Shown here piece by piece: positions 8,544 through 42,065 of a stretch of 64,000 bases of DNA. The stretch covers positions 434,001 to 498,000 of the forward strand of contig NZ_VTLB01000002.1 in assembly GCF_020514235.1 (NCBI RefSeq), written 5' to 3'. Position numbers and translations under genes: made by a program. The notes beneath the pieces were generated by a model, which made no database searches, was not told where the DNA came from, and worked only from the letters and a program-made list of their open reading frames with translations. The stretch is from Synechococcus sp. MU1617. Lineage in GTDB: Bacteria; Cyanobacteriota; Cyanobacteriia; PCC-6307; Cyanobiaceae. Each line of letters opens with the position of its first letter. Within the stretch, counting starts at the first letter, position 1.

Positions 8544-9974
<1,431 letters not shown>

Positions 9975-12490: not shown

Positions 12491-13261
12491 ATGAAAGCTG
12501 TCATTTTGGCCGGGGGCTTGGGGACAAGGCTCAGCGAAGAAACCCATCTTAAGCCTAAGCCCATGGTTGAAGTTGGTGGCAAGCCCATTTTATGGCACAT
12601 TCTAAAAATATATAGCCATTATGGCGTAAACGAATTCATCATATGTTGTGGATACAAAGGTTATTTAATTAAAGAATATTTTGCCAATTACTTCCTTCAC
12701 ACTAGTGATGTCACATTTCATATGGATAATGATAACTATATGGAGGTCCATCATCGAAAAAGTGAGCCTTGGAAAGTCACCTTGGTTGACACAGGTGAGT
12801 TGAGTCAGACAGGTGGTCGATTGGCTCATGTCCGTGACTATCTCGGCAGCGGTAGTTTTTGTTTTACCTATGGTGATGGGGTTGCTGATGTGAATATCGA
12901 ATCCTTGATTTCTCACCATAGAGATGAAGGTCGAGAGGTCACGCTTACGGCTGTTCAGCCACCAGGTAGATATGGTGCTTTGCAATTGGATGGAAATACA
13001 GTTAACCAGTTCCAGGAGAAGCCTGAGGGTGATAATGCTTGGATTAATGGAGGCTTCTTTGTGATGGAGCCCAGCGTGCTTGATCGGATTCGTGGAGATC
13101 TCACGAGCTGGGAAGCGGATGTTTTGCCTCAGGTGGCTGCAGATGGTCAACTCAGCGCTTATCGGCATCAGGGTTTTTGGCAGCCAATGGACACGCTTCG
13201 TGATCGCAACCGACTCGAAGAGTTATGGGAGAAAGGTCAGGCTCCCTGGAAATTGTGGTGA
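12491..13261 (+). CDS. rfbF: Glucose-1-phosphate cytidylyltransferase
   Basis: 256 aa, full length for the family. Makes CDP-glucose from CTP and glucose-1-phosphate, the entry to CDP-linked 6-deoxyhexoses. Seen: MKAVILAGGLGTRLSEET at the N-terminus (nucleotide-binding loop), KPKPMVEVGGKPI, the YGDGVADV metal-binding region at about 131-138, and FWQPMDTLRDR near the end. The stop and the rfbG start share one base (TGATG). The 5' half is AT-rich and the 3' half GC-richer, with the change at roughly 12.8-13.0 kb, a sign of recombination inside the gene. Confidence 0.95.
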   Translation: MKAVILAGGLGTRLSEETHLKPKPMVEVGGKPILWHILKIYSHYGVNEFIICCGYKGYLIKEYFANYFLHTSDVTFHMDNDNYMEVHHRKSEPWKVTLVDTGELSQTGGRLAHVRDYLGSGSFCFTYGDGVADVNIESLISHHRDEGREVTLTAVQPPGRYGALQLDGNTVNQFQEKPEGDNAWINGGFFVMEPSVLDRIRGDLTSWEADVLPQVAADGQLSAYRHQGFWQPMDTLRDRNRLEELWEKGQAPWKLW

Positions 13262-14361
13262 TGCTCAATTCTTCGTTTTGGGATGGACGGCGCGTCTTGC
13301 TCACTGGTCATACAGGATTCAAGGGCAGTTGGTTATCGCTTTGGTTGCTGAAGCTTGGCGCTCAGGTATGGGGCTATGCTCTGCCTCCTGAGAACAAAAG
13401 CTCACTTTTTAATCAGCTCGACTTAGAAGAAAAATTCAGTTGCTTGCAACACAGCCTGGGTGATCTGAGTGATCTCCAGGCATTGCAATCTGTGGTAGCC
13501 CAAGCACAGCCTGAGGTCGTGGTTCACTTGGCGGCTCAGCCCTTGGTGCGTAAAAGCTACCTAGATCCTTTGGGCACTTGGGCCACGAACGTGCAGGGTA
13601 GTCTGCACCTTCTGGAAGCTCTTAAAGGCTTGAATCATGCCTGTGCGGTTGTCATGGTCACGACTGACAAGGTGTATGCGAATTGTGAATGGGATTTTGG
13701 CTATCGGGAGGAGGATCGTCTCGGTGGACATGACCCTTACAGCGCCAGCAAGGCTGCTGTTGAATTGGCGATCTCCAGTTGGCGATCCAGCTTCTGTGGA
13801 TCTGGGGGCCACCAGACCCCCTATCTAAAGATTGCTACGGCGCGGGCTGGCAACGTGATCGGCGGAGGTGACTGGGCAGACGAGCGGATTGTGCCTGATG
13901 CCATTCGTTCCCTGATGGCTGGCAAGCCGATTCCTGTACGCAATCATCTGGCGACTCGGCCTTGGCAGCATGTCCTCGAGCCGCTGGGTGGTTACCTCTT
14001 GCTGGCAGAGCGTCTCGCTGCTGCTGGAGGTGCTGGAAGTCGTTGTGAGACGGCTTTCAACTTTGGCCCTCAGCTCGAGGCCAACCGCACGGTGGGTGAA
14101 CTCGTAGAAGAAGCACTACAGCACTGGCCGGGCAGTTGGGAAGACCTTTCCGATCCGACAGCTCCCCATGAAGCCGGGCGGCTTCATCTTCAAATCGATA
14201 AGGCTCATCATCAGCTCAATTGGAGTCCCAACTGGGATTTCACCACCACTGTGGCTCGTACGGTGTTCTGGTATCGCGCGGTCCATGAGGGAGATAGTCC
14301 TTTGAACTGTTGCCTGGCTGATTTGGATGCCTATCAGCAGGAGTCAACTCATGCCAGCTGA
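13261..14361 (+). CDS. rfbG: CDP-glucose 4,6-dehydratase
   Basis: 366 aa. Converts CDP-glucose to CDP-4-keto-6-deoxyglucose, an NAD-dependent extended SDR. Seen: GHTGFKGSW nucleotide-binding motif at about 16-24, VTTDKVYAN and the catalytic YxxxK in DPYSASKAA, and the family segment RPWQHVLEPLGGYL. The start is the ATG overlapping the rfbF stop; a longer in-frame start 36 bp upstream is within rfbF. It overlaps the next gene by 11 bp. GC content is close to that of core genes. No RfbH-type 3-dehydrase follows, so the product is probably not a 3,6-dideoxyhexose. Confidence 0.95.
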   Translation: MLNSSFWDGRRVLLTGHTGFKGSWLSLWLLKLGAQVWGYALPPENKSSLFNQLDLEEKFSCLQHSLGDLSDLQALQSVVAQAQPEVVVHLAAQPLVRKSYLDPLGTWATNVQGSLHLLEALKGLNHACAVVMVTTDKVYANCEWDFGYREEDRLGGHDPYSASKAAVELAISSWRSSFCGSGGHQTPYLKIATARAGNVIGGGDWADERIVPDAIRSLMAGKPIPVRNHLATRPWQHVLEPLGGYLLLAERLAAAGGAGSRCETAFNFGPQLEANRTVGELVEEALQHWPGSWEDLSDPTAPHEAGRLHLQIDKAHHQLNWSPNWDFTTTVARTVFWYRAVHEGDSPLNCCLADLDAYQQESTHAS

Positions 14362-14920
14362 ACTTCGTCAAACTCCAATCGAGGGCGTGTTTGAACTGCT
14401 GAGCCACCCCTTCGTGGACTCACGAGGTGCTTTCCTCAATGCATTTCGAGCCCACGAAGAGGAATTCATCAGCTCCTGGGCTGATCGAGGCATTGCCCAG
14501 GTGAACCTCAGTCGCAGCGAGGTTGTGGGCACAATTCGTGGACTTCATTTCCAGGCGCCACCCCACAGCGAAGCCAAAATGGTGCGCTGCCTGAAAGGCC
14601 GAGTGTGGGATGTGGCAGTGGACTTGCGGGAAAAATCCGAAACGTATGGCCATTGGCAAGCCGTTGAGCTGACCCCAGAGCGGGGTAATGCCCTGTTGAT
14701 TCCCGAAGGTTGTGCCCATGGCTTCCAGGTGTTGGAGCCAGGTAGCGAGTTGCTCTATCTCCACTCAGGAGCTTGGGTGCGAGAGGCCGAAACAGGCGTG
14801 CGCTGGGATGATCTCCGATTAGCAGTTGCCTGGCCCCTTCCTCCGACGGAGCTGAGCGAGCGCGACCGCAACCTCCCATTGTTGTCTGACTGGCTTCTCA
14901 CCAATAAATCCAGCCCATGA
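14351..14920 (+). CDS. rfbC: RfbC-family nucleotide-sugar 3,5-epimerase (cupin)
   Basis: 189 aa from the ATG at 14351, preceded by AGGAG with good spacing and starting inside rfbG. dTDP-4-dehydrorhamnose 3,5-epimerase family: HPFVDSRGAF near the N-terminus, catalytic-histidine segment GTIRGLHFQ, KMVRCLKGRVWDVAVDLR and IPEGCAHGFQVL. In this operon the likely substrate is the CDP-4-keto-6-deoxyhexose made by RfbG rather than a dTDP sugar; similar enzymes act before or after C-3 methylation in branched deoxysugar pathways. That assignment is inference from context. Confidence 0.85.
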   Translation: MPAELRQTPIEGVFELLSHPFVDSRGAFLNAFRAHEEEFISSWADRGIAQVNLSRSEVVGTIRGLHFQAPPHSEAKMVRCLKGRVWDVAVDLREKSETYGHWQAVELTPERGNALLIPEGCAHGFQVLEPGSELLYLHSGAWVREAETGVRWDDLRLAVAWPLPPTELSERDRNLPLLSDWLLTNKSSP

Positions 14921-16128
14921 CCCACACCTGCCGCCACTGCCGATCGCCTCTTGAACACACGGTGATTGATCTGGGCCATCAGCCGCCCAGTAACGCCTAT
15001 CTCACCGCCGAGCAGCTGCTGGAGCCGGAGGTCACCTATCCGTTGCAGGTGTATGTGTGCACCAACTGCTGGTTGGTGCAACTACCAGCCCATGCCACAG
15101 CAGAGGAGCTGTTTACGGAGGATTACGCCTACTTCTCCAGCACGTCCAGCAGTTGGTGCGCTCACGCTGAGCGGTTCGTGGATGCGGCGGTAGAGAGGCT
15201 TGGCCTGGGGGTAGACAGTCACGTGGTGGAGCTGGCGTCCAACGATGGCTATCTGCTCCAATACGTGCAGAAACGTGGGATTCCCTGCCTTGGTATTGAG
15301 CCAACCCGTGCGACTGCAGAGGCGGCGCGTGCCAAAGGGATCGAAACGATCGAGCGCTTCTTTGGGGTGGCGCTAGCTGAAGAGCTTGAGCCTGCTGATC
15401 TGGTGGTTGCCAATAATGTGTTGGCCCATGTGCCGGATATCAATGATTTTGTCTCAGGTATCGCTCGGTTGCTTAAGCCCCAGGGCCGCGCCTCGATCGA
15501 GTTCCCCAACCTTCTGCGGCTTCTAGAGGGAAACCAGTTCGACACGATTTATCACGAGCACTACAGCTACCTGAGTTTGCGTGTGGTGCAACGGATTGCA
15601 GCATCTGCAGGACTGGAGGTAGTGGATGTGGAACAGCTGCCCACTCATGGCGGCAGTCTGCGGGTTTGGCTGGCCCGTCAGGGTGCAGCCAAACCAACCG
15701 CATCGGTTTCAGCAGTGCTTGCAGATGAAGAAACCGCAGGTCTGGAATCTTTGAAAGCTTATGACAATTTCCAGCATCGGGCCGAGGAGGCGAAGTACGG
15801 GCTTTTGGAGTTTTTACTCCAAGCAAAACGTAAAGGCCAGCGGGTGCTCGGCTACGGCGCTGCCGCTAAAGGCAATACCTTGCTCAACTACGCTGGTATT
15901 CGCGCCGACCTTTTGCCCGCTGTGGCTGATCGCGCGTCTAGCAAGCAAGGAAGCTACCTTCCCGGTAGCCACATTCCGGTGATCACTCCGGAGGAGCTTG
16001 AGGGGATGAATCCTGATGCATTATTGGTGTTGCCTTGGAATCTCATCAATGAGGTGAACGAACAGTGGCCAAGGCATTCTTTGGTGACAGCGATTCCGAG
16101 CCTTAAGAAGTGGGGTGAAAACAGCTGA
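14917..16128 (+). CDS. Nucleotide-sugar C-methyltransferase (NovU/TylC3-like)
   Basis: 403 aa. Three parts are visible: an N-terminal zinc-binding domain with CRHC at 5-8 and CTNC about 45 residues later, a central SAM-binding domain with VVELASNDGYLLQ, and a C-terminal domain with GYGAAAKGNTLLNY typical of sugar C-methyltransferases (Methyltransf_13/14 families). Characterised relatives such as TylC3, EryBIII and NovU put a methyl group on C-3 or C-5 of 4-keto-deoxysugars using SAM. The ATG overlaps the epimerase stop. With RfbF, RfbG and the epimerase it predicts a branched 6-deoxyhexose linked to CDP. Confidence 0.85.
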   Translation: MTHTCRHCRSPLEHTVIDLGHQPPSNAYLTAEQLLEPEVTYPLQVYVCTNCWLVQLPAHATAEELFTEDYAYFSSTSSSWCAHAERFVDAAVERLGLGVDSHVVELASNDGYLLQYVQKRGIPCLGIEPTRATAEAARAKGIETIERFFGVALAEELEPADLVVANNVLAHVPDINDFVSGIARLLKPQGRASIEFPNLLRLLEGNQFDTIYHEHYSYLSLRVVQRIAASAGLEVVDVEQLPTHGGSLRVWLARQGAAKPTASVSAVLADEETAGLESLKAYDNFQHRAEEAKYGLLEFLLQAKRKGQRVLGYGAAAKGNTLLNYAGIRADLLPAVADRASSKQGSYLPGSHIPVITPEELEGMNPDALLVLPWNLINEVNEQWPRHSLVTAIPSLKKWGENS

Positions 16129-16129
16129 T

Positions 16130-17254
16130 ATGAGCGACATATCGATTCGCAAAATCCCTTACACCAAGCCGTCAATTACGGCGCTTGAGGTTCAGTATGC
16201 GACCGACGCAGCAGCCAATGGTTGGGGTGAACACTGTTACGACTACATCGTCCGTTTTGAGGAGGCCTTTAAAGCCCACCTTGGCGTGAAGTACGCCATC
16301 GCCACGAGCAGTTGTACGGGCGCCTTACACATGGGCATGCACGCACTGGGGCTCGGGCCAGGCGATGAGGTGATCATGGCCGACACCAATTGGATCGCCA
16401 CCGCCGCACCGATCGTGCACCTGGGCGCTACGCCGGTGTTTGTGGACATCCTGCCGGATAGCTGGTGCCTGGACCCCGAACAAGTGGAAGCCGCTATCAC
16501 GCCGAAGACTAAGGCAATTGTGGCTGTGCACCTCTACGGGAACCTCTGTGACATGGATGCGCTTTTGGCGATCGGTGAGCGTCACGGCATACCCGTGATC
16601 GAAGATGCCGCCGAAGCTGTTGGTTCGGTTTACCACGGTAAGCGGGCCGGGAGTTTGGGGTGCTTTGGCGCCTTCTCGTTCCATGGGACAAAGACGATCA
16701 CCACTGGGGAGGGGGGGATGTTCGTCACTAACGACCCTAATCTTTACGAACAGGTTCTTACGCTGTCGAACCATGGGCGAGCGAAAGGACAGATCAAGCA
16801 GTTCTGGCCAGATATGGTTGGTTTCAAATACAAGATGAGTAATATTCAGGCTGCTATAGGTTGCGCACAGCTAGAGAGAGTTGATGAACTGGTTTCTCTA
16901 AAACGCAATATTTTTTCCGTCTACGAAGAACGGCTTTTTGATTTGCCTTTGAACCTTAATAACCAGCCTAAAGGGTGTTTCAATGGCTATTGGATGCCTA
17001 CTATGGTTTTACACGAAGAATATTCATTTTGTCGCGATCTTTTATTAGATCGCCTGAAATCAAAAGGAGTTGATGCCAGGGTATTTTTCTGGCCGCTGAG
17101 TTCAATTAATATTAAAGGTCGGAAAGCCTCTGATGAGCCGTTTCTTTCTGAGTCTATATACACTAGAGCGTTGAATCTTCCCTCTTCGTATTGCATGTCT
17201 ACTGAAGACATTGAACTTGTCTGCAATTCAGTACGCGAAGCTTTGTTCAGCTAA
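16130..17254 (+). CDS. DegT/DnrJ/EryC1/StrS-family sugar aminotransferase
   Basis: 374 aa from the ATG at 16130; a GTG 15 bp upstream is possible. PLP-dependent transfer of an amino group to a keto sugar. Seen: TSSCTGALHMGMHALGLGPGDEVI near the N-terminus, VIEDAAEAVGS (aspartate binding the PLP ring nitrogen), and SFHGTKTITTGEGG with the Schiff-base lysine at about 188. It is closest in feel to 4-aminotransferases such as perosamine synthase, but position specificity is not readable. The first two thirds are GC-rich and the last third (from about 16.8 kb) AT-rich, so a recombination junction probably lies inside. Confidence 0.88.
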   Translation: MSDISIRKIPYTKPSITALEVQYATDAAANGWGEHCYDYIVRFEEAFKAHLGVKYAIATSSCTGALHMGMHALGLGPGDEVIMADTNWIATAAPIVHLGATPVFVDILPDSWCLDPEQVEAAITPKTKAIVAVHLYGNLCDMDALLAIGERHGIPVIEDAAEAVGSVYHGKRAGSLGCFGAFSFHGTKTITTGEGGMFVTNDPNLYEQVLTLSNHGRAKGQIKQFWPDMVGFKYKMSNIQAAIGCAQLERVDELVSLKRNIFSVYEERLFDLPLNLNNQPKGCFNGYWMPTMVLHEEYSFCRDLLLDRLKSKGVDARVFFWPLSSINIKGRKASDEPFLSESIYTRALNLPSSYCMSTEDIELVCNSVREALFS

Positions 17255-17394
17255 ATTTTTATGCCTTCCCAACATCCTCTGTAATATCATTATGTTGTCC
17301 CATCTCGCGAGAACTTTCATTGAATGTCTCAAGTTATATGATATTATATTGAACTCTTATTTCTTCCGGATTGGTCAACCAATTCAGCTTTTAA

Positions 17395-18150
17395 ATGATT
17401 AGACTTATCGCTAGAGTAGATGTCCGCAACGGGTATCATATTAAAACAATTAAATGCGAAGGTGTCGAAAAGATACGCTCAATTAAATCTTCGCTTCAGT
17501 TATTCTCTTCTGGAATATTTGAGTACGATGAAATAGTTTTAGTTGATAATGTAGCATCTTTGTACGGATTTGATAACTGGTTGTTGAGAGAGGGTAAACA
17601 TTACTATTGCTCTGTTCCTCTTAGTGTAGGTGGTGCTATTATCAATCAAACTCAAGCAAAAGCAACATTAGAAGTTGGTGCAGATAAAATTATTATAAAT
17701 ACAGGAGCGATTGAAAATCCTAGTATTTTAAAATCGATTAGTAACAGCTGTGGTCGTCAAGCTGTTATCCTCCAAGTCGATGCCAAATATTACGAAGGTC
17801 GTTATATGTGTGCAACTCATGGGTCTAGAGAAATCTCAGATGTTTCTGTAAAAGAATGGTTATCTAATGCTTACGATCTTGGTGTTGGTGAAATTCATCT
17901 TACATCTATTGATAGTGAAGGTACTTCTTCAAGATTTCCCGACGACCTTGCAGAAATAGCATTTTCTTCGTGTGCGCTGCCTATTATTATTTCTGGAGGT
18001 ATACGCAATTCTTCTGATATTTTCCACTTTTCCAAAAACTATGGAGCCAACTCCTTTAGTTTGTCATCCATTCCAAATATTCATAATATTGACACAAATA
18101 CATTACGTAATCAATTAGAGTCTCTTGGCCTCTGCGTGCGTCGGACATGA
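17395..18150 (+). CDS. HisF-like cyclase subunit of a sugar amidotransferase system (WbuZ/HisF2-like)
   Basis: 251 aa TIM barrel of the HisF family. Both catalytic aspartates are kept: D9 in RVDVRNG and D129 in QVDAKYYEG; the phosphate-binding loops LSVGGAI and IISGGIRN are visible. The sequence is AT-rich and divergent, and it sits beside HisH-like and amidotransferase genes, not in a histidine operon. In P. aeruginosa O-antigen clusters the equivalent HisF2-HisH2 pair supplies ammonia to WbpG for acetamidino-sugar formation. The start overlaps nothing; 140 bp of AT-rich spacer lies upstream. The stop overlaps the hisH-like start by 4 bp. Confidence 0.85.
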   Translation: MIRLIARVDVRNGYHIKTIKCEGVEKIRSIKSSLQLFSSGIFEYDEIVLVDNVASLYGFDNWLLREGKHYYCSVPLSVGGAIINQTQAKATLEVGADKIIINTGAIENPSILKSISNSCGRQAVILQVDAKYYEGRYMCATHGSREISDVSVKEWLSNAYDLGVGEIHLTSIDSEGTSSRFPDDLAEIAFSSCALPIIISGGIRNSSDIFHFSKNYGANSFSLSSIPNIHNIDTNTLRNQLESLGLCVRRT

Positions 18151-18821
18151 AAGTATTCGTTTTAGCTCTTTCTACATCTAATTACAAATCTGTCATTGCC
18201 GCTTTAAGAACTCAGGATGTAGATGCTGTTCCATTGAGCGTATCTGAATTTAAAGATCTCCGTGATGAGTCACTTATAATAATTCCTGGTGTTGGTAATA
18301 TATCACATCTATGCGAAGAAATATCGTGCCAGATTAGTATAGCCGACCTTTCTAAACTTATTGCATTGTCTAGACATTATGTTATTGGTATATGTTTAGG
18401 TTTTCAATTTATGTGTAAATCATCAAGCGAAAATATCTCTAGTGAATGTCTAGATTTGTTCCCTTTTAATGTAAGCAGAATAAATAAATTTCAGGAATTA
18501 CCCTCTGTTGGTTGGAAAAAAATCGAAAAATGCTTGCCTTTGGGCAATAACTTGCGGTTAAAATCTCCGCAATGGGGGAACATATTGCAGTCAAGCTATT
18601 TCTACTTCACGCATTCATATGCAGTATTAGACATATATTCCACAAATGATTGCGAAGTTTTCAAATATATGATTGGCCAGCAATCTGTTACTGCCTCAAT
18701 TCTATTAGGTCGATATATAGGATTTCAGTTTCATCCTGAGAAAAGTGGTCATAGCGGATTGCTTCTTTTGAAAGCTGTTGTAGACTCAATTGAAGCAGAT
18801 TTTTTGCGAAGTAATGACTGA
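18147..18821 (+). CDS. HisH-like glutamine amidotransferase subunit (WbuY/HisH2-like)
   Basis: 224 aa class-I glutaminase. The catalytic triad is present: C83 in GICLGFQFM, H196 and E198 in FHPEKSG; the oxyanion-type loop PGVGN is at about 47-51. It should hydrolyse glutamine and pass ammonia through the HisF-like barrel encoded just upstream (4-bp overlap). The stop overlaps the amidotransferase start by 8 bp, so the three proteins are probably made together. It is diverged from housekeeping HisH and AT-rich, as expected of a polysaccharide-cluster paralogue. Confidence 0.87.
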   Translation: MKVFVLALSTSNYKSVIAALRTQDVDAVPLSVSEFKDLRDESLIIIPGVGNISHLCEEISCQISIADLSKLIALSRHYVIGICLGFQFMCKSSSENISSECLDLFPFNVSRINKFQELPSVGWKKIEKCLPLGNNLRLKSPQWGNILQSSYFYFTHSYAVLDIYSTNDCEVFKYMIGQQSVTASILLGRYIGFQFHPEKSGHSGLLLLKAVVDSIEADFLRSND

Positions 18822-20040
18822 TGGTTTTGGTGCTTTGGCGCCTACAGGCCTACCACTCAATGTTGAGTATTGCACGAGGTGCGTTATATCCAATCAGAAG
18901 CCCATATCTTCTAACGAGTCGCAGCACAAAATAAATGACAAAAAAAAGACAACTAACTTTGAGGGTGGAGTTTGTGATGCATGCTTATGGGCTGAAGAAA
19001 AAGAAACAAGTATAGATTGGAACCTGAGAGAATCAGAGTTAATTGAACTTTGCAATAAATATCGAAAATCAAATGGTGATTATGATGTTGTAGTGCCTGC
19101 AAGTGGAGGCAAAGATTCTAGATATGTGGCACATCTTTTGAAAGAAAAATATAATATGAATCCCCTTACAGTCACTTGGAAGCCACATAAATTTACACCA
19201 ATTGGCCTTGAAAACTATTTTAGCCTAATAGATTCTGGCCAAGCAAATATTTTGTATTCACCTCGTGGAGATGTCCAAAAAAAATTAACTTCTTTGGCGT
19301 TTAAGAATTTAGGTCATCCTTTTCAACCATTTATCGCCGGTCAGAGAGTTGTCGGCCCTGCTACAGCGTTAAAGTATGATATTAAACTTGTATTTTATGG
19401 AGAAAATGTTGCTGAGTACGGCAACAATAAAGATGATAATTACTCTCCCTTGATGGACCCAGGTCTGTACACATGTTTCGATTTTAGTCCTGATACATTG
19501 AATGATTATTATCTGGCTGGTGTGTCCTTAAAGGACTTAATTGAATCTTATGGGATCACACTTAATGATCTCAATCCTTATAAGTCACCTTCGATAGATG
19601 AAGTAAAAAATGCAGGAATTGAAGTTCATTATATGTCCTACTACCGTAAATGGGTTCCCCAGGAAAATTATTATTATGCAGTCAAGAATACCGGGTTTGT
19701 ACCTAACGAAAAAAGAAAAGATGGTTCATTTTCAAAATATGCAGGCATTGATGATGTTTTAGAAGATCTTCATTTTTATATGCAATTGATAAAGTTTGGC
19801 ATGGGCAGATGTACTTGGGATGCTGCCCAAGAGGTGCGCACTGGCAAGCTTGAACGTGAAGAAGCTGTAGCTCTTGTAAATAAATACGGCTCTGAAGAGC
19901 CCTATAACTTAATGGACGAAATCCTTGAGTATTTAAATCTTACAATCGATGAATTCAGGGAAATAGTTGACAGATTTAGGACCCCACATCTTTGGCGTAA
20001 AGATGGCGATAAGTTTTACTTGACGTATCCTGTAAAATGA
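18814..20040 (+). CDS. N-acetyl sugar amidotransferase (WbpG/PseA/WbuX family)
   Basis: 408 aa from the ATG at 18814. ATP-pyrophosphatase fold: the PP-loop SGGKDS is at about 97-102 and two CxxC pairs (CTRC at about 20-23, CDAC at about 54-57) suggest a zinc site. The family activates an N-acetyl group of a nucleotide sugar with ATP and replaces oxygen by ammonia, giving an acetamidino (amidine) group; ammonia comes from the HisH/HisF partners encoded immediately upstream. The conserved segments FYGENVAEYG and VRTGKLEREEA fit the family. About 100 bp of AT-rich spacer separate it from the diiron oxygenase gene. Confidence 0.88.
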   Translation: MTDGFGALAPTGLPLNVEYCTRCVISNQKPISSNESQHKINDKKKTTNFEGGVCDACLWAEEKETSIDWNLRESELIELCNKYRKSNGDYDVVVPASGGKDSRYVAHLLKEKYNMNPLTVTWKPHKFTPIGLENYFSLIDSGQANILYSPRGDVQKKLTSLAFKNLGHPFQPFIAGQRVVGPATALKYDIKLVFYGENVAEYGNNKDDNYSPLMDPGLYTCFDFSPDTLNDYYLAGVSLKDLIESYGITLNDLNPYKSPSIDEVKNAGIEVHYMSYYRKWVPQENYYYAVKNTGFVPNEKRKDGSFSKYAGIDDVLEDLHFYMQLIKFGMGRCTWDAAQEVRTGKLEREEAVALVNKYGSEEPYNLMDEILEYLNLTIDEFREIVDRFRTPHLWRKDGDKFYLTYPVK

Positions 20041-20140
20041 TTGATTTTTCTTCTGAGTATTATTAGATGTTAGTCTAACACAACACCAAGCCACACATGA
20101 TCGCAATGTACGCTAACTTGGATCCTTCGAGTATGTCTTT

Positions 20141-21085
20141 ATGAACAGGGCATTGCTTTCAGCGAGCGATAGGTGGGATTCTACTTCGTCAGTTCGTTCC
20201 AACCCAAATACATATGATTTGAATTTAGCCGCGAACTCGGCCTCATCTAAAACTTGGCATTTATCAGGATATTCTGGCATTTTATCCCTGCCACTGTTCG
20301 CAGACTTGAGCGAAGATGATATTAATTATGTTATGGGTCTTCAGCTTTTAGAGTTTGTAACTAAACAAGCTAGATTTGAGATTGAGTGTGTCAATAAAGT
20401 GGCTCAAGATCTTGCTTTTGGCAATTACACATATGTTATCAGTGATGAATTTAAGCTAGATGCACTCAAGATTTACACTGATGAAGGATATCATTCATAT
20501 TTCACGAAAAAACTTGCCAACCAAATTATAGCTCACTTCAAACTGCCTGAACATGAGATATCTAGTGTTGTAAACATTCACTTTAGCAAAATTTCTCAAA
20601 TTGGGTCCCAATTTGACAAAAAATATTCTTATCTGTCCGACCTTGCCATTGTCTTTGTTGCGGAAAATCAAATAGTTGCCGATATTTCCTCTGAAATGAA
20701 ATCCGTTGTTCATGAGCCAATCGTGTCAATGTTTAAAGATCATCTAGTTGATGAAGTCTTTCATGCTAAATATTTTGCTGAATTATTGCCCATCTTGTGG
20801 GGGCAAATGACAGATTATGAGCAAACAGTACTCGGGATAAACATTTGTGAAAGTATGATTGTCTTAGGGAAGCCTCGTACTGATATATATTATGTATCTT
20901 TAGCAAAACTTGGTTTTGCTGAGGAGGTAATTCGCGACGCGATTGATTTAAAATATAATAATGACGAATGGAATCGTGTACGCCTTAAAGACAGAATGAA
21001 GCCCACCATTGATCTTCTCTCTTCTGTAGGTGTTTTTCAACACGACTTGGTTAAAAGCACTTTTCAACAAAAAGGATTGTTATGA
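20141..21085 (+). CDS. AurF-like diiron N-oxygenase
   Basis: 314 aa, ferritin-like helical protein resembling AurF (p-aminobenzoate N-oxygenase). Seven candidate metal ligands can be placed: E80, E115 and H118 (DEGYH), E175, H201, E205 and H208 (HLVDEVFH). Their spacings match the published AurF ligands E101, E136, H139, E196, H223, E227 and H230 (as recalled) with a single one-residue difference. AurF-type enzymes oxidise amines to hydroxylamine, nitroso or nitro groups with O2. Finding one in a sugar cluster, between an amidotransferase and a methyltransferase (4-bp overlap with the latter), suggests N-oxidation of an amino or amidino sugar. The substrate is inference; the diiron fold is well supported. 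Confidence 0.8.
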   Translation: MNRALLSASDRWDSTSSVRSNPNTYDLNLAANSASSKTWHLSGYSGILSLPLFADLSEDDINYVMGLQLLEFVTKQARFEIECVNKVAQDLAFGNYTYVISDEFKLDALKIYTDEGYHSYFTKKLANQIIAHFKLPEHEISSVVNIHFSKISQIGSQFDKKYSYLSDLAIVFVAENQIVADISSEMKSVVHEPIVSMFKDHLVDEVFHAKYFAELLPILWGQMTDYEQTVLGINICESMIVLGKPRTDIYYVSLAKLGFAEEVIRDAIDLKYNNDEWNRVRLKDRMKPTIDLLSSVGVFQHDLVKSTFQQKGLL

Positions 21086-21801
21086 TGGATTACCTCCAAG
21101 CCAACGCTGAGTACTGGAGTCAGGCCGTTTATGACACGCCGAATCCCGAGACATATGCCTTTCGTCTATATGGCAGGGTTATTAAACATCAGTTTGGTCT
21201 TGATGGTTCATCACACCCGAATTTACTAGATTTTGGTTGCGGTGCAGGAGGAAACTGCAAGTTCTTCGCTGATAGAGGTTTCAATGTTCATGGAGTTGAC
21301 CAAAGTAAAGTTGATATTTCCCGAATAAAAGAGCGCATTCCCAATCTCTCCTCTAATTTTAAATGTATTAGTCCAATATGCAACGCAGATGATATTTGGT
21401 TTCCAGGTATCAAATTTAAGATTATTGTCTCCTTCCAGACTCTTTATTACTTGAGTGACACTGATTTGAAAAAAAGACTTATCTCTCTAAATAATATGCT
21501 AGAGCCAGGTGGTTATTTTATAGCAACTATGATGCATATTTCATCGTGGTACTTTGATATGAGCACCCCTTCATCCGATGGCCTGCATTTTGTAAAATTT
21601 CATAGAGACCAGGATAAAAATAGACCTGGTCTGTCTATCAATGATCACTTTATTAATTTCACTGATTCAGAAGCTGACTTGATTGACAAATTTAGTATCT
21701 TCACCCCTTTGCACACTAAAGGTTATTATGATGGTATATACAGAGATGATCAAGGTTCAGAAAAGCATTTGATTTTTGTTGGACAAAAAAAGAAATCTTG
21801 A
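21082..21801 (+). CDS. SAM-dependent methyltransferase (class I)
   Basis: 239 aa. The SAM-binding motif LLDFGCGAGGNCKFF lies at about 47-61, followed by VHGVDQSKVD (ribose-binding acidic residue) and the motif IVSFQTLYYLSDTDL. The class I fold is clear but the acceptor atom cannot be told. It starts with two consecutive ATGs overlapping the oxygenase stop, with AAGGA just upstream, so it is probably translated with the oxygenase. In this context O- or N-methylation of the oxidised sugar is a reasonable guess. Confidence 0.78.
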   Translation: MMDYLQANAEYWSQAVYDTPNPETYAFRLYGRVIKHQFGLDGSSHPNLLDFGCGAGGNCKFFADRGFNVHGVDQSKVDISRIKERIPNLSSNFKCISPICNADDIWFPGIKFKIIVSFQTLYYLSDTDLKKRLISLNNMLEPGGYFIATMMHISSWYFDMSTPSSDGLHFVKFHRDQDKNRPGLSINDHFINFTDSEADLIDKFSIFTPLHTKGYYDGIYRDDQGSEKHLIFVGQKKKS

Positions 21802-21823
21802 GGTAATTAAGCCGTATCTTTTT

Positions 21824-22570
21824 ATGAATAAAAGCGTTATTGTTTTCGCTCATAGTTCCGTTGGATTAAATTGCCTAGAATGGCTAATATCGAATTATAA
21901 GTCCGATATTTCGTTAGTGGTAACAACTGGTGTTGATCCTATTTACAAGTTGGCAATTAGCCATAATTTGCCAGCCATTGTCTTTGAATCAGAACAATCT
22001 TTACTGGCCTATATATGCAATGCCTCTTTGGTATTTGATTTCGGCTTGCTTTTATGGTGGCCATCTATTATTCATGAGCCTTTGTTAAACCTCACTAGTC
22101 GTGGTTTTATAAATACTCACCCGAGTTTATTGCCCTTTAATAGAGGAAAGCATCCTAATTTTTGGTCGATAGTATCTGAGACTCCTTTTGGCGTGACTCT
22201 GCATAAAATAGATTCAGGAATAGATACCGGCATGATTTTGGTTCAAAGAGAAATTCCTATCTCTTGGACTGATACAGGAGAAACTCTATACAATAAATCG
22301 CTTCTTGCAATGTTTGATTTGTTTGTTGAGTTTTATCCAAATTTAAGGTCGAGCACTTATAAGCCAAGATATCAACCAAAAATTATAGGTTCCTACCACC
22401 ATTCTTCCGAATTGATCAAGGCATCGTCTCTTTGTTTAGATCAACTTACAACAGTTAGAGATCTATTGAATCGTTTACGGGCTAGGACCTTCGCTGGACA
22501 TCCAGGCTGTACTTTTATCGATGATGGTATAAAATATGAAGTCACCATTCGCATTGAGAGAGAGGATTAA
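21824..22570 (+). CDS. Sugar N-formyltransferase (Fmt-like)
   Basis: 248 aa from the ATG at 21824; an ATG/TTG 48 bp upstream would overlap the methyltransferase. Formyl_trans_N fold using 10-formyl-tetrahydrofolate. The catalytic Asn-His-Asp set is present: N97 and H99 in FINTHPSLLP and D134 in KIDSGIDTG. A C-terminal part with LRARTFAGHPGC recalls the extra domain of sugar N-formyltransferases (VioF, WbtJ/QdtF types). It should formylate an amino sugar, often at C-3 or C-4 of a dideoxyhexose. It may use the same amino sugar as the neighbouring N-oxygenase, or a different one. Confidence 0.82.
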   Translation: MNKSVIVFAHSSVGLNCLEWLISNYKSDISLVVTTGVDPIYKLAISHNLPAIVFESEQSLLAYICNASLVFDFGLLLWWPSIIHEPLLNLTSRGFINTHPSLLPFNRGKHPNFWSIVSETPFGVTLHKIDSGIDTGMILVQREIPISWTDTGETLYNKSLLAMFDLFVEFYPNLRSSTYKPRYQPKIIGSYHHSSELIKASSLCLDQLTTVRDLLNRLRARTFAGHPGCTFIDDGIKYEVTIRIERED

Positions 22571-22575
22571 TCACT

Positions 22576-23328
22576 ATGTATGACTTCAAATCTGACTGCA
22601 GAAAGAATATCAAACAGCAAGCGGGCGATCCCTCTTTTATCAGTGCTTCTAAAAATTGGTTAAATTTAGCCAATAGGCATATGTATTCTTATAACTTTGA
22701 ATGCTTAGGGCGACCTTTAATCCAATACCCACAGGACATAGTTCAATACCAAGAAACTGTTTTTAACTCTAATCCAACTTTGATAATCGAGACCGGCATT
22801 GCCCATGGTGGTTCTCTTGTTCTCTCCGCCTCTATGCTCTGCCTGCTCGATGTGATGGAAGGACTCAATCCACGTGAATCTTCTAGAAAGGTTGTTGGAG
22901 TTGATATTGATATACGCCCTCACAATCGCAAAGCCCTCGATGAGCATCCCCTGCGCTTCAAGATGGAGCTTATTCAGGGATCCTCGATCGATTCTGCCAT
23001 CATCCAGCAAGTTCGTAGCCACGCTGATGGTGTTGAACGGGTGCTGCTGTCCTTAGATTCCAACCATACCCACGAGCATGTTCTAGCTGAGCTGAATGCC
23101 TATGCCGATCTCGTTTCCGTGGGCAGCTACTGCATTGTATTTGACACTGTTATTGAAGACTTGCCGGCTTCATCATTCCCTGATCGCCCATGGGATGTAG
23201 GTAACAATCCCAAAACCGCTCTACATGAATGGCTTAAAAGTCATCCCGAGTTTGAGATTGATAAGGATATTGATAACAAGCTTTCGATTAGCGTAGCGCC
23301 GGATGGCTATTTAAAAAGGATTACTTAG
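22576..23328 (+). CDS. CmcI-like methyltransferase (cephalosporin-hydroxylase family)
   Basis: 250 aa. Family PF04989, which covers CmcI and rhamnosyl O-methyltransferases of glycan clusters: IIETGIAHGGSLVL is the SAM-binding segment at about 70-83, VVGVDIDIRPHN carries the acidic residues, and LLSLDSNHTHEHVLAEL follows, as in the metal-dependent members. A purine-rich ribosome site GAGAGAGAGG lies ~10 bp upstream. Probable O-methylation of a sugar. The middle (roughly 22.86-23.23 kb) is GC-richer than both ends, another sign of recombination within a gene. Confidence 0.78.
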   Translation: MYDFKSDCRKNIKQQAGDPSFISASKNWLNLANRHMYSYNFECLGRPLIQYPQDIVQYQETVFNSNPTLIIETGIAHGGSLVLSASMLCLLDVMEGLNPRESSRKVVGVDIDIRPHNRKALDEHPLRFKMELIQGSSIDSAIIQQVRSHADGVERVLLSLDSNHTHEHVLAELNAYADLVSVGSYCIVFDTVIEDLPASSFPDRPWDVGNNPKTALHEWLKSHPEFEIDKDIDNKLSISVAPDGYLKRIT

Positions 23329-23417
23329 AATCATAGACATCAATCAGCATTTATTAATGCCATTTGCTCAGTACCATTATGGAAATATGATATGATGTAA
23401 ACATCAGAATATTTTCA

Positions 23418-24539
23418 ATGGATATTATCTGCGTTTCGGCTAGACCTCACGATCAAGTCTTGCCTTCTATAAATAATTTTTTGTCCATTGCTGATAAAGT
23501 TATTATTGCAAGGCATCCATCGTCAAAATTATTGCCTATTAGTAATCCTAAGTTAGTCCAATTTTGCGGAGCACATACCTACTTAGAAAGGCTTGAACTT
23601 GCGCTTTCTCAATCAGAATCGGAATATGTACTCTTAGCGGCTGATGATGACTTTTATGTTCCATCATCCGTCGAAAGTATAATTGATAAATTAAGTTTTT
23701 ATCCTAATTTTTCTTCCGTTTCTGCCATTACTCTCCATCTTGAAAAAGTAACTGAAGAATCTATTTCCCTTAATCCATATTTAATTTCTTCGGAAATTAT
23801 AACCAAAAAGAATCTTGTTCCGGCAAGATCTGTTGACGAGTATCTATACAAGTATTTTAGCCCTTTATCAGTAGATTATTATACGATTTATAATGCCAAA
23901 AAATTAAAGATTGTTCTAAATATGTTCACTAAGGAACTCACTCAGTCTACACTCGAATCTCTTGGGTATTCTATGAAGCTTTTTCAGCATCTATTTTCTT
24001 TAAGTCTTCTTTTAGTAGGTGATATTGTTCCATTTTCGCTTCCCTTATATGTTCGTGGAAAAGAAACCGCACTTAGAAAGCAATCAAGTTATTCAGACTC
24101 TATTGTGGACCCCAATCAGCTTAAAGCACTTGCTCAAGAAGCTTCTAATTTTTTGTCTGATACTGTTGCATACGAGGAGTTTGTAGAAGTTCTCTACTCA
24201 TTGAGTAAAGAGCATTTTGAGTATAGGCATCTAGACAAAAGATTACTTCACAAAATTGTTCAGAAAGTCATTCAGATGTCTACTTTGCAAGCCCGCATTG
24301 ACGCACTTTCATTCTTTATACCAAGATACAGCATAACCATAACAAGAGATTCTCACGAGATAAATCTAAAAAAACATAAAGACCGTCTTGCAATCTCTGT
24401 TCCATATGATCGTCTAGATAATGTTATCTTCCCTAACTATATTAGCGAAATGTTTGAACCTTTTCTCCTGTCAAATACATATTCTACCTCCCTAAAGTCC
24501 TTCTCTTCCTCTGTTTGGAGTTCAATTCAAAAGGCTTAA
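23418..24539 (+). CDS. Family 2-like glycosyltransferase
   Basis: 373 aa. The N-terminal half is GT-A-like: a sequence of strand-helix units then YVLLAADDDFYVP at about 73-85 with an acidic triplet for metal and nucleotide sugar, as in TIGR00180-type glycosyltransferases. The C-terminal ~200 residues are AT-rich, serine/leucine-rich and unrecognised; they may hold acceptor specificity. It stands apart, with 89 bp upstream and 420 bp of non-coding DNA downstream. Donor and acceptor unknown. Confidence 0.6.
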   Translation: MDIICVSARPHDQVLPSINNFLSIADKVIIARHPSSKLLPISNPKLVQFCGAHTYLERLELALSQSESEYVLLAADDDFYVPSSVESIIDKLSFYPNFSSVSAITLHLEKVTEESISLNPYLISSEIITKKNLVPARSVDEYLYKYFSPLSVDYYTIYNAKKLKIVLNMFTKELTQSTLESLGYSMKLFQHLFSLSLLLVGDIVPFSLPLYVRGKETALRKQSSYSDSIVDPNQLKALAQEASNFLSDTVAYEEFVEVLYSLSKEHFEYRHLDKRLLHKIVQKVIQMSTLQARIDALSFFIPRYSITITRDSHEINLKKHKDRLAISVPYDRLDNVIFPNYISEMFEPFLLSNTYSTSLKSFSSSVWSSIQKA

Positions 24540-24959
24540 ATCATAGCTCAATTTCAGACCTTTTGAGTCTTAATATCTAACATAGTGCATCAATATAAGC
24601 ATTTATATTCCCATTTTGAATTTAGGCTGTCTTTCGCAACTGCAGTTAGTTCATGAATTTCAGTAGTTTATATATCACAACGCTCCTTAAAAACCTTGGT
24701 CCATATCGATGCCAGACTAATACATTTGCTTGAATTAATTAATCTTTTATTTGGCTATAAATCCTCTAGAGAATGTATGAATTACTATTTCTGAGATTAA
24801 GTATATCCTATGCCTTCTTCGATACGTATGCATACTATTTTTTGAGACTGTTTCCCTTCGGGTTTCTTTAGGCCAATCTGAATCATATCAATTAAATTCT
24901 CGCAATATTATGCTAGGATTGGCGAAAAGATTTTTCTCGACTGTCTTTTTATATTTATT
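24540..24959. other. 420-bp AT-rich intergenic region
   Basis: No reading frame of believable length or family resemblance was found on either strand, and no tRNA, repeat or strong terminator. The only hint of function is TATGCT about 50 bp before the next gene (24909-24914), which could be a -10 element without a clear -35. A small CCCTTCGGG hairpin lies at 24855-24863. It may be decayed coding DNA, but no clear remnant was found. Confidence 0.5.
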
Positions 24960-26372
24960 ATGGGTCTAGCAGTTTTACCGTTGCATGTCTGGGATCGTGA
25001 AATTGATTCTAGAATATTTCTTGCTGCAATTTTGCTTTCAGAAGGTCACCAAGTAGTTTTTGGTCATGAATATAATATTTCACCACTTTACCAACGTTTC
25101 CCTCAGCTATTTCATGTCGGTGCCGGTAGACCTATTTATAATGAACCAAGAACTAATTTATGGTATGAGCCAATTACCGAAAATGGTGGATTTAATGGTT
25201 TGATCTTTGAGGAGGGTATCAATGACATTATGCTGAATTCCAGCATTTCATTTCCTGGAATTAATTCGCGATCAGTAAATTCTACTTCTAAGATTTTTGC
25301 ATGGTGCCAAAGAGAAGTTGACCAAATGTGTGACGCGGCACCTGATGACCTCCATCCTTTGTTACGCGCCAAGTCCTCATCATGTTCTAATAGCAGGATC
25401 GATTTACTTGGTCCTATTGGATCAGATTATTTTGAGCAGTACACAAACTCAATCCAACAGATTTTTGGGGACTTTATTCTCATTTCCGATAACTTTGGGC
25501 TTGAAATATTTGGTGTTGGCGCTCCTCTAGACACTCGACCAGAGTTTAAATGGGTTTCGGAAACTAATAAAAAAGAGGAATTAATTGAGTTTAACCAAAA
25601 TTATCATCAAAAAAGTCTTCGTTCACGTGATCAATTTTCCAAAATAATAAATACACTGGTTATAAGTTTCCCAAGCATTAATTTTATATTTCGACCTCAT
25701 CCTGTTGCCGATCCATTTTACTGGCACAAAAATTTGGTCAAGTCTCGAAATATCAATATCATCTGCAGAGATAGCCCGGTCCCTTGGATAAAAGCATCTA
25801 AAGCTGTTATTCACGCTGGCTGTACTCTTGGTTTAGAGTCGGAACTCACTAACATACCGGCCATTGATATTTCTCGAGTTTATGGAGATATTCGTAAACA
25901 ATCTGTGAGTAATATTGTTAGCAGATATAAACCGGACTCAATGGATCAACTCCTAAAATGCGTGCAGAAATCATGGCTTTCTCAAGGCTTCTCTAATAAA
26001 CCGTGCCACACTGAAAATCTTCATCTTGACAATGTTCTTCAAAATAATATGCAACATATAAATGATGATGTGTTTGAGCTTTTCAATTCTTTTAAGCTAG
26101 GGTTCCCCAAATTATCTAATCTCTCTTATACCCTTAGTGTTATCAGAGATTTTTACTCAAGTATAGATCTTAAATTTTCTCAGTCTTATTCCGCCCAGCT
26201 TATTGCTTCTTTTGTTGGAGATAAACCGCCACTTGCAGGTAAATCGCGCCATTACTCTGTCACTGAGATTACGAGGCGGCTTATATCTGCTAATAAAGCT
26301 CTACAACTAAATACAAAAACTAAGGTTCAAAAGATTTCTAAAAATAACGTGTTTTTATTTACTCCAAATTAG
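24960..26372 (+). CDS. Surface carbohydrate biosynthesis protein (GT-B type)
   Basis: 470 aa. The C-terminal half shows FIFRPHPVADPFYW at about 240-253 and then AVIHAGCTLGLESELTNIPAIDIS, the pattern of capsule and teichoic-acid-like GT-B transferases in which a buried histidine and a glutamate contact the nucleotide (TIGR04396-like surface polysaccharide proteins). The N-terminal half starts with a Rossmann-like strand and LAAILLSEGHQVVFG. It probably transfers a sugar or sugar-phosphate to the growing glycan. The ATG follows the long intergenic gap, so it may have its own promoter. Convergent with the next operon. Confidence 0.65.
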   Translation: MGLAVLPLHVWDREIDSRIFLAAILLSEGHQVVFGHEYNISPLYQRFPQLFHVGAGRPIYNEPRTNLWYEPITENGGFNGLIFEEGINDIMLNSSISFPGINSRSVNSTSKIFAWCQREVDQMCDAAPDDLHPLLRAKSSSCSNSRIDLLGPIGSDYFEQYTNSIQQIFGDFILISDNFGLEIFGVGAPLDTRPEFKWVSETNKKEELIEFNQNYHQKSLRSRDQFSKIINTLVISFPSINFIFRPHPVADPFYWHKNLVKSRNINIICRDSPVPWIKASKAVIHAGCTLGLESELTNIPAIDISRVYGDIRKQSVSNIVSRYKPDSMDQLLKCVQKSWLSQGFSNKPCHTENLHLDNVLQNNMQHINDDVFELFNSFKLGFPKLSNLSYTLSVIRDFYSSIDLKFSQSYSAQLIASFVGDKPPLAGKSRHYSVTEITRRLISANKALQLNTKTKVQKISKNNVFLFTPN

Positions 26373-26426: not shown

Positions 26427-27119
26427 TCAAGGCTTCCTGAATACCCCTACATATTCAGAAATTCCTTCTTTGCTTACAATACATTTCTGGCTATTGTTAA
26501 TAATCGATAAGGGCTCTAGTCTGTGAAAAAATGATTTATAAGTATCTAAGTCAATCAGAGTAATCTGATTTATATTGCTAAAACAACTGCTTTTGTATTC
26601 ACTTTCAAAGCTCCATGTGTCTTTTTCGATTTCTTTTGCATATTTAAGTTCTGAAAATCCAGGATGTTCTTTGTTGAACATAAATGAAATAAATTTCCCA
26701 CCAGGGTTAAGCATAGTAATTGCCTTGTCTATGACAATTTGAATATCCTTACAGGTTAGATTCGATAAAGACTGACGATCAAGTATTAGATCATATTTAT
26801 TTGGATAGTTGTCTATGTTGAGTAAATTATCTTCAATCAATTGTGCTGTCAAGTTTGCTTCGTCTAGCATGTTTTTCGCTATCTTTAAGGCAGTAGGTGA
26901 GCTATCAACTCCCCAGACATCAAATCCTTCCATGGCTAGAAATTTGACATGGTTTCCAACTCCACAACCGAGGTCTAACGCTTTATACCTATAAGTTGGG
27001 TCCTCTTTAGGGAAATTTTTAAGTACATTTGAAACAACTAAATCGTATGGATATTTATTAATCTGATAGCCCTTTTGATATAGCTCCTCATACCTTTTGG
27101 TGTAGCTGACTTGTTTCAT
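26427..27119 (-). CDS. SAM-dependent methyltransferase (class I)
   Basis: 230 aa. The SAM site is clear: ALDLGCGVGNHVKFLAMEG at about 47-65, VWGVDSSPTAL with the ribose-binding Asp, then DLILDRQSLSNL in place of motif IV. The N-terminal YxxRYEELYQKGYQINKYPYD resembles tellurite-resistance/ubiquinone-type methyltransferases. It overlaps the upstream FemAB-like gene by 4 bp (ATGA) and ends the five-gene minus-strand operon. Substrate unknown; the island setting suggests a sugar or sugar-linked acyl group. Confidence 0.75.
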   Translation of the reverse strand: MKQVSYTKRYEELYQKGYQINKYPYDLVVSNVLKNFPKEDPTYRYKALDLGCGVGNHVKFLAMEGFDVWGVDSSPTALKIAKNMLDEANLTAQLIEDNLLNIDNYPNKYDLILDRQSLSNLTCKDIQIVIDKAITMLNPGGKFISFMFNKEHPGFSELKYAKEIEKDTWSFESEYKSSCFSNINQITLIDLDTYKSFFHRLEPLSIINNSQKCIVSKEGISEYVGVFRKP

Positions 27120-28102
27120 TTATTATTTAATGCTAATGAAAAGTATCTTTCAATTGTACCACCAAAGCTTGTTTTAAACCAGCCACGTTTAGGGCTGTTG
27201 ATTCCTTCTAAATCGACTACCTCAACGTTTCGCCGAGTTAGTTCTTCAAAAGCTTCCCAAAGTACTGCCGTTCCTGTATGAGAGCCTCTTTGCTCTGGAT
27301 CACTTGCCCCATACAAATAACATGCTTGATCATGTTGAACTAAGAATATAGCTATGCTTCCTAAATTACCGTCCTCGCTGTATGAATTAAAGATTAGGAG
27401 CAGTCCAGCTCTATTCAGTGATTCCAGAAATTCTTTCAGCTCAATTAATTTTTCTTCTCCGACTGAGATGTTTTGCCTCTCAAAGGTTTTTCTATATAAA
27501 TCCACAAATGAACTAATCTCAGTTGTCATTTCTGTTGTTACTCCTTTTCTTTGAGAATATCTGATTTCTTGTTTCCTGGCCGATGAGCAGTTTCTGAATA
27601 ATTTGTTTTCTTTTAAGTCTCGAAATGATTCTGGCTCGTCATCCAAGTGAATGTAAGATGTAAATCGCATTTCAACTTCGAACTTTCTGCAATTAGTATT
27701 ATAGTTGTGCCATAAAAATGATCTTATGTCTTTAATTGATGGGTGTGTAGAAAATATCACCTCATCAAACCTAAAATCTAGGTACTTGGCAAGCTCTTCT
27801 TGTACGCTTAAATTCATAGATAAGATCTGTGATTTATTTTGATTATTACATGAAAAGTGTGTGATACCGTTATATATAAAAAAATCATGGCTTATTATCC
27901 TATTTTTATCCCTATTCATTGGCGCCACGAATGAGGCTAACTTTTCATTTCCCTTGCATATATAAAATGAATAAATTGGCACATCTAGAGAATTGATCAA
28001 TGTTGATGATAGAAATATGTTTTTACTTGTTGACCTTGTTGAGTGAATCTTATCCCAATCCTCACCTACTATGCACTCTTCAATTGTGTACTTATTTGGC
28101 AT
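27116..28102 (-). CDS. FemAB/GNAT-like acyl or aminoacyl transferase
   Basis: 328 aa. The second half has the feel of a FemAB-type GNAT domain: RKQEIRYSQRKG, then FVDLYRKTFERQ, and the closing segment SHTGTAVLWEAFEELTRRNVEVVDLEGINSPKRGWFKTSFGG, a helix-strand arrangement seen in the PF13480 family. Such enzymes place an acyl or aminoacyl group on an amine, for example on an amino sugar. The first half is a degenerate GNAT-like repeat. It overlaps its upstream neighbour by 11 bp and its downstream neighbour by 4 bp. The exact reaction is unknown. Confidence 0.65.
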   Translation of the reverse strand: MPNKYTIEECIVGEDWDKIHSTRSTSKNIFLSSTLINSLDVPIYSFYICKGNEKLASFVAPMNRDKNRIISHDFFIYNGITHFSCNNQNKSQILSMNLSVQEELAKYLDFRFDEVIFSTHPSIKDIRSFLWHNYNTNCRKFEVEMRFTSYIHLDDEPESFRDLKENKLFRNCSSARKQEIRYSQRKGVTTEMTTEISSFVDLYRKTFERQNISVGEEKLIELKEFLESLNRAGLLLIFNSYSEDGNLGSIAIFLVQHDQACYLYGASDPEQRGSHTGTAVLWEAFEELTRRNVEVVDLEGINSPKRGWFKTSFGGTIERYFSLALNNK

Positions 28103-29375: not shown

Positions 29376-29454
29376 CACTTTATGTATCTGATATAAAATT
29401 TCTTCTATTCTAACATGTGCTTCCAAAATTTCCCAATACCTTGGCGCAGTTCCA

Positions 29455-30735: not shown

Positions 30736-31447
30736 TATCAAGATTTTCAATCATATCAGAGTGTAATGTTTGTAACTCAATGCTTTTTTCTATATTACCT
30801 TTGTTCTTGTAGAGTAAAGTCATAGAAACTCTTTCATTTTCACGAGGGTTGAATCTATCTGAAGAAAACCCATAAGATGCATGACGCACTATTGAGTAGT
30901 GCCCAGAATTGCTCATATATTTGTAATAATTATCTTTAAAGCTCTTGATACCCTTCTTATGTTCATACTCGTTGGAGTATCTCGTGATAGGATCAAAATC
31001 TTCGATATACATATATCCCCCAATTCTTAGGACTCGATCTGCTTCCTTGATGGCTTGGCATACATCCAATCTGTCAATCAAATATAGGCAAAACCCAAAG
31101 CCTACTAAGTCAAAACTTGAATCATCAAAAGGTAGTTTATTTGCTACTCCCTTGACTAATTCAACATCTGTCGTTTTCATCTGCTTACGCTTTTTCCAGC
31201 TTTCTATTGCATGTGAAGAAGGTTCAATCCCGATTCCCTTGCTCTTACTTGATTCGGCTAAATACGCTAATGGATAGCCACTTCCCGCTCCTATCTCTAA
31301 TATTTTTCTTATATCTCTGCAGTTCTCTTGAATCCATCTTCCGAGCATTTGCCTTGAAGCACTGATTGTTGGTTTTTCATCCGCTTTGTGATTTCTTAAG
31401 AACCATGCATCACCCTCGCCTTTTAGAAATACATCTGCTTGATTCAC
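30713..31447 (-). CDS. SAM-dependent methyltransferase, first gene of a minus-strand operon
   Basis: 244 aa from a GTG at 31447. Motifs: ILEIGAGSGYPLAYLAES at about 49-66, GIEPSSHAI, then the PFDDSSFDLVGFGFCLYLIDR and ADRVLRIGGYMYIEDF segments typical of UbiE/BioC-like Methyltransf_11 enzymes. It ends inside the aminopeptidase-like gene. It opens a five-gene operon and is divergent from the SDR-NeuB-GT2 operon across 79 bp, which should hold both promoters. Substrate unknown. Confidence 0.78.
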   Translation of the reverse strand: MNQADVFLKGEGDAWFLRNHKADEKPTISASRQMLGRWIQENCRDIRKILEIGAGSGYPLAYLAESSKSKGIGIEPSSHAIESWKKRKQMKTTDVELVKGVANKLPFDDSSFDLVGFGFCLYLIDRLDVCQAIKEADRVLRIGGYMYIEDFDPITRYSNEYEHKKGIKSFKDNYYKYMSNSGHYSIVRHASYGFSSDRFNPRENERVSMTLLYKNKGNIEKSIELQTLHSDMIENLDNGPNETD

Positions 31448-31526
31448 TACTCAATGCATCTGTTTCCCTTTAATATTAGTACATCTGGTACGATCAAACA
31501 ATCCAGTAAGTAGCTAGATTTGCTCT

Positions 31527-34157: not shown

Positions 34158-34158
34158 G

Positions 34159-35988: not shown

Positions 35989-36024
35989 TTTTCTCTTATC
36001 CTAACATGTGACAAGCTACAAAAC

Positions 36025-38987: not shown

Positions 38988-38996
38988 TCACTCTTT

Positions 38997-40055: not shown

Positions 40056-42065
<2,010 letters not shown>

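Follow-up and report, generated by a model that had tools for sequence, protein, structure and literature searches.

The window analysed here (the whole stretch of 64,000 nucleotides from Synechococcus sp. MU1617) was found to contain an island in which the GC content drops from about 60–65% to mostly 35–43%, between about positions 10,000 and 40,000, its inner part at about 13,000–17,000 having 53–57%. The island is flanked by genes which, as read from the ORFs, we take to be thiC (8592–9974) and transketolase (40056–42065). Within it, a gene encoding an AurF-superfamily diiron oxygenase lies among genes for the synthesis of a surface sugar, arranged as follows.

12491..16128, + strand: overlapping genes for a nucleotidyltransferase, a 4,6-dehydratase-type protein, a 3,5-epimerase and a sugar C-methyltransferase, leading to the aminotransferase gene
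16115..17254, + strand: DegT-type sugar aminotransferase, with perosamine synthetases as nearest solved relatives
17255..21823: block between the aminotransferase and formyltransferase genes, missing from the same place in five of five comparison genomes
17395..18150, + strand: HisF-like subunit (PF00977); best NCBIfam model WbuZ, 136.8 bits against a cut-off of 299.7
18147..18821, + strand: HisH-like glutaminase (ammonia supply); TIGR01855, 123.9 bits against a cut-off of 105.4; GICLG and HPE motifs
18814..20040, + strand: N-acetyl sugar amidotransferase (WbuX/WbpG type); TIGR03573, 309 bits against a cut-off of 203.2
20141..21085, + strand: AurF-superfamily diiron oxygenase, 314 aa, ATG to TGA, assigned by Pfam, profile, fold and ligand alignment
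21082..21801, + strand: class I SAM-dependent methyltransferase, overlapping the diiron gene by 4 bp
21824..22570, + strand: sugar N-formyltransferase
22576..23328, + strand: CmcI/rhamnosyl O-methyltransferase family protein (PF04989, 306 bits)

The starts of the amidotransferase and formyltransferase genes were taken as ATG 18814 and ATG 21824, and the listed TTG starts (18790 and 21776, respectively) were set aside. The genes at 12491..16128 would direct a CDP-sugar route.

The second half of the island (26427–40001) is mostly on the minus strand and includes genes for a DUF4910 protein and a FemAB-like protein, together with genes presumed to be carbamoyltransferase-like and aminotransferase-like. 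A second methyltransferase, encoded at 26427–27119, shares 33% identity over 105 residues with the product of 21082..21801, and a NeuB-like gene (32405–33520, + strand) is matched at 62% identity in G023, a genome of the same genus.

The amidine block in the deoxysugar operon

The three genes of a sugar amidine set (HisF2/HisH2/WbpG) stand together with their active-site motifs present. The amidotransferase carries the PP-loop SGGKDS and two CxxC pairs, and it matches the Legionella protein 8WEX in the PDB with an E-value of 3.5e-118, an enzyme described as an LPS amidotransferase with a PP-loop and a tetracysteine motif (PMC10607449). For the HisF-like part, the scores fall short of the equivalog cut-offs for both WbuZ and HisF2, and two weaker hisF/hisA-like matches lie on other contigs of the genome, one HisF-like on C4. 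A preliminary description of this DNA had named one neighbouring amidotransferase; the assignment was confirmed, but the set proved larger, the HisF/HisH/amidotransferase trio being complete. The surface-polysaccharide setting proposed there is well supported by the GC-poor island and by the upstream match to the Legionella LPS N-acetyl sugar amidotransferase, and the 4-bp overlap that it had reported between the diiron gene and the methyltransferase gene is present, the latter starting at 21082. A gap of 100 bp separates the amidotransferase gene from the diiron gene. In Pfam and NCBIfam family searches, no gene of the block gave a match to an acetyltransferase or to an electron-transfer partner.

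Genome comparison showed that the block, 4.6 kb in length, comprises five co-directional genes in the order HisF-HisH-amidotransferase-AurF-methyltransferase. Carriers of the formyltransferase at E ≤1e-25 number six among the 300 genomes of the family, the MU1617 genome included. In all five comparison genomes (G023, G350, G1336, G1378 and G014) the formyltransferase gene directly follows the aminotransferase gene, and the CmcI-type gene comes next on the same strand in four of these and on the opposite strand in G014, a distant case with a formyltransferase 33–37% identical. The gene order from nucleotidyltransferase to aminotransferase is conserved in G023, with 65–79% protein identity, and this genome carries a separate amidine set at another place in that region and lacks a match to the diiron protein. 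At one G023 locus (L118, 8954–10993) the HisF-like and amidotransferase parts are fused in a single ORF of 679 aa. Thus, the AurF gene belongs to an amidine block, and this block either entered an older deoxysugar operon by insertion or was put together within it. As the direct repeats flanking the block are short and weak, no mechanism of insertion was assigned.

The diiron protein and its relatives

The product of 20141-21085 has a single family match, to Pfam AurF (PF11583), with 38.5 bits against the curated cut-off of 29.6; its E-value is 9.7e-10, and the best value in alignment A2, which has 27 members (the window protein and 26 relatives), is 6.4e-31. The family search disclosed only this one AurF-family gene in the 2.3 Mb genome, whose size and gene content fit a marine Synechococcus-like cyanobacterium; in genomes of its class there are also genes closely similar to those of named cyanobacteria. 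A search of the PDB with the single sequence gave no match up to an E-value of 10; the profile built from the 27 rows retrieved AurF (E 2.6e-25) and CmlI (E 3.7e-20). The AlphaFold2 model (mean pLDDT 88.2, pTM 0.89) has CmlI (Z 27.1) and AurF (Z up to 26.2) as its top structural matches, the six AurF/CmlI rows spanning Z 24.6–27.1 over 277–290 residues at 11–14% identity in the structural alignments, and Foldseek also ranked the CmlI and AurF chains first. The next family in the structural ranking was methane monooxygenase hydroxylase, with Z 16.5.

The iron ligands, three histidines and four glutamates, are E80, E115, H118, E175, H201, E205 and H208. Their agreement with AurF was checked by sequence alignment, in which they occupy one-to-one columns with AurF E101, E136, H139, E196, H223, E227 and H230, and in which CmlI has E/E/H/E/H/E/H in the same columns. 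All seven are invariant in the 27 rows of A2, window protein included. In the second shell, the aspartates D114 and D204 correspond to AurF D135 and D226 and also sit in the columns of CmlI. The segment D114-E115-x-x-H118 forms a DExxH motif and not the QExxH of halogenases; this motif and the seven ligands would favour N-oxygenation in general, naming no substrate.

It is therefore well supported that 20141-21085 encodes an AurF-type diiron enzyme. The preliminary description had reached this identity from the letters and had proposed a PF11583 search and a structure prediction as checks, and both bear it out, together with the profile match and the ligand alignment. Each of its seven candidate ligands proved to align with an AurF ligand, and the one-residue shift in spacing that it had noticed is real, the interval E175–H201 being 26 residues and E196–H223 in AurF 27.

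The position of the protein among its relatives was analysed in a tree of 39 rows, of which 37 were ORFs (33 representatives at 60% identity, the window protein among them, and four added by hand) and two were PDB fragments of AurF and CmlI. No other row has an end branch as long as that of the window protein (2.8), and the function of the diiron protein may accordingly have drifted. In the best tree it joins L020, a weak placement at 85/41, apart from AurF and CmlI; a clade of the window protein with these two, which entered as fragments only, was not rejected (p 0.136). Since a grouping with AurF and CmlI was neither shown nor rejected, the protein was filed under the AurF superfamily and not under the arylamine N-oxygenases.

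The diiron protein is rare, occurring in one of 34 genomes of the genus, one of 300 of the family and three of 388 of the class, the MU1617 genome included, and in two of 369 genomes from L020's class and one of 395 from L085's phylum, the centre genome being counted each time. Among the matches listed, the closest relative (30–31% identity) is in a gammaproteobacterial MAG, where its gene stands beside one for a class I glutamine amidotransferase; its other neighbour is presumably a transporter gene. One viral contig carries a relative; single-protein pattern scans of genome contigs and viral contigs gave none, and neither did phage records. A candidate in G018 (L002) scored above the Pfam cut-off and was dropped, as the protein search misses it and its neighbours, read without a family search, look like phage genes. 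Partial matches below the Pfam cut-off (L003–L006) were also dropped.

Neighbourhoods were compared in a set of loci holding the best 80 of at least 377 relatives found by the alignment scan, a biased sample in that most are from Pseudomonas; five of the 100 loci had no match in the ORF table. None of the 93 loci L008–L100, two of which repeat places of two others and several of which are short, contained HisF, HisH, amidotransferase, formyltransferase or aminotransferase at E 1e-4, and the pairing of an amidine set with an AurF gene was found in a single genome. A match to glutamine amidotransferase or asparagine synthase lies within 3 kb of the diiron gene in 10 of 32 representatives (22 without), and the same probes hit the outlying parts of these loci in two of 32 (184,764 bases near against 265,924 remote), a comparison biased by probes drawn from such neighbours and usable as a hint only. 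It would fit a frequent use, by AurF-family enzymes, of nitrogen that amidotransferases have just supplied. In several cyanobacterial relatives and in L020 a glutamine amidotransferase gene adjoins the diiron gene. The eight plasmid records with a match to the diiron protein have it near genes for NRPS, asparagine synthase or glutamine amidotransferase, and none has a sugar operon around it as annotated, the Burkholderia record being unannotated there; this last record we read as a fragin-type cluster. Of the 11 plasmid records with an amidotransferase match, four were inspected around the match, and none of these four lists a diiron gene in the PLSDB gene tables, which are incomplete.

Other arrangements were also observed. 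In Wocania (L085, 7695–9490) an AurF-like gene shares 4 bp with a methyltransferase gene, as in the window, and a gene for an FkbM-type methyltransferase follows; sequence comparison gave no clear kinship between the methyltransferases of Wocania, L013 and L100 and that of the window. In four actinobacterial loci (L018, L019, L037 and L090) the AurF-like gene adjoins an asparagine synthase gene, with a transporter gene nearby, while in L021 (Cupriavidus) and L022 (Pseudomonas) it lies between nitroreductase-family (PF00881) and transporter-like genes, a transporter neighbour recurring at many Pseudomonas loci.

Possible role of the diiron protein

The complete trio and the finding that the block is an insertion strengthen the idea of an amidine as substrate. 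The preferred reading, with a probability of roughly 0.45, is that the diiron N-oxygenase oxygenates the amidine (or amine/amide) nitrogen of the sugar and that methylation follows; in this scheme we infer the substrate nitrogen, the reaction, the order of steps and the role of the methyltransferase. HisH would release ammonia from glutamine and HisF would channel it, after which the PP-loop amidotransferase would use ATP to activate the N-acyl amide of the sugar, nitrogen replacing oxygen to give the amidine. This amidine chemistry is a proposal for the LPS family. The diiron enzyme would then activate O2 and oxygenate the amidine nitrogen, or an amine/amide precursor, most likely by hydroxylation to an N-hydroxyamidine (amidoxime), and the coupled methyltransferase would methylate the N-O group or an amidine nitrogen.

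Separate precedents exist for the parts of the scheme. LitN, a diiron N-oxygenase of lipothrenin synthesis, has been proposed to oxidise an amide nitrogen directly (PMC10616846), and the Legionella orf8 product is described as a dedicated methyltransferase that N-methylates an LPS amidine (PMC13306086). DnfA is reported to convert hydroxylamine to N2 and to be encoded with the glutamine amidotransferase DnfC. Combination of these precedents with LPS amidotransfer makes N-oxygenation of the amidine nitrogen or its precursor the most likely reaction. That the outcome is a picocyanobacterial surface sugar bearing an N-hydroxyamidine (amidoxime) or the methyl ether of this group, which the diiron N-oxygenase would form from an amidine supplied by its neighbours, is possible yet doubtful.

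The amine installed by the DegT-type aminotransferase might instead be oxidised to a hydroxylamine, nitroso or nitro group, giving a surface nitrosugar, the amidine set acting elsewhere. Some natural-product nitrosugars bear 3-C-methyl groups, and upstream of the block there are both aminotransferase and C-methyltransferase genes. AurF and CmlI are reported to convert amines to nitro groups. This route is nevertheless rather unlikely, as the aminotransferase–formyltransferase pair is kept in the five genomes that lack the block, so that the amine is probably formylated, and as the diiron gene is grouped with the amidine set. The protein might also have another, unlinked substrate of the island or be the product of a passenger gene with no role in the amidine pathway. 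Its single occurrence, the tendency of islands to gather unrelated genes and the 100-bp gap after the amidotransferase gene all point that way, and the intact ligands, the overlap with the methyltransferase gene and the position in a co-directional block point against it, leaving this explanation with a low probability.

An oxidase of small nitrogen compounds resembling DnfA (with ammonia or hydroxylamine chemistry, or formation of an N-N bond), using the nitrogen released by the glutaminase and modifying no sugar, is improbable. It would agree with the seven ligand types and the DnfC partner reported for DnfA, and with the glutamine amidotransferase genes beside several cyanobacterial relatives and L020; however, no dnfB-like reductase occurs among ten products scanned between 16115 and 26372, the glutaminase here is part of the HisF/HisH/amidotransferase set, and the placement of the window protein with L020 is weak. 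Modification of a sugar carbon or a lipid by a dimetal halogenase or a C-H hydroxylase that shares the AurF fold is more improbable still. AurF-resembling CylC halogenases are reported from cyanobacteria (PMC12101540), and methane monooxygenase hydroxylase was the next structural match, but the halogenases described there have QExxH, as against DExxH and seven ligands in the window protein; the halogenase reading itself was rejected on this motif.

Oxygenation of a sugar amidine nitrogen, the preferred reading, would place AurF-type chemistry in a new setting. AurF-type diiron N-oxygenases are reported from natural-product clusters and from ammonia oxidation, and in a limited set of papers the titles and abstract openings gave no case of an AurF-type or diiron N-oxygenase in LPS, O-antigen or surface polysaccharide. 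If the reading is true, AurF-type enzymes extend to glycans and a bacterial glycan carries an N-oxidised amidine, a surface group with possible effects on charge, on the binding of metals, on grazing or on the attachment of phages.

Comparison with known systems

The window contains all three parts of the WbpG/HisF2/HisH2 systems, with an amidotransferase that matches Legionella 8WEX. To our knowledge, the known WbpG/HisF2/HisH2 sets include no diiron oxygenase. The Legionella orf8 step, likened by role, has a methyltransferase acting on an LPS amidine, and the window has a methyltransferase gene in the block of the amidine set; in contrast to the scheme proposed here, the available part of the orf8 report (PMC13306086) mentions no N-oxygenation. 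LitN, likened by description, is an AurF-like diiron enzyme for which oxidation of an acylated nitrogen has been proposed, but it belongs to a lipopeptide pathway.

DnfA of the Dirammox system, likened by description and not by sequence, has the ligand types and a nearby amidotransferase gene in common with the window. Unlike dnfABC, the window has no reductase among the ten products of 16115-26372 (the rest of the island having been partly scanned), its amidotransferase is of another kind, and its context is a sugar operon. AurF and CmlI (PDB 2jcd, 3chh, 5hyg and 5hyh) differ from the window protein in the sugar-operon context of the latter, in its long separate branch in the best tree and in sequence, at 11–14% identity, and they share with it the fold, the seven ligands and the two second-shell aspartates.
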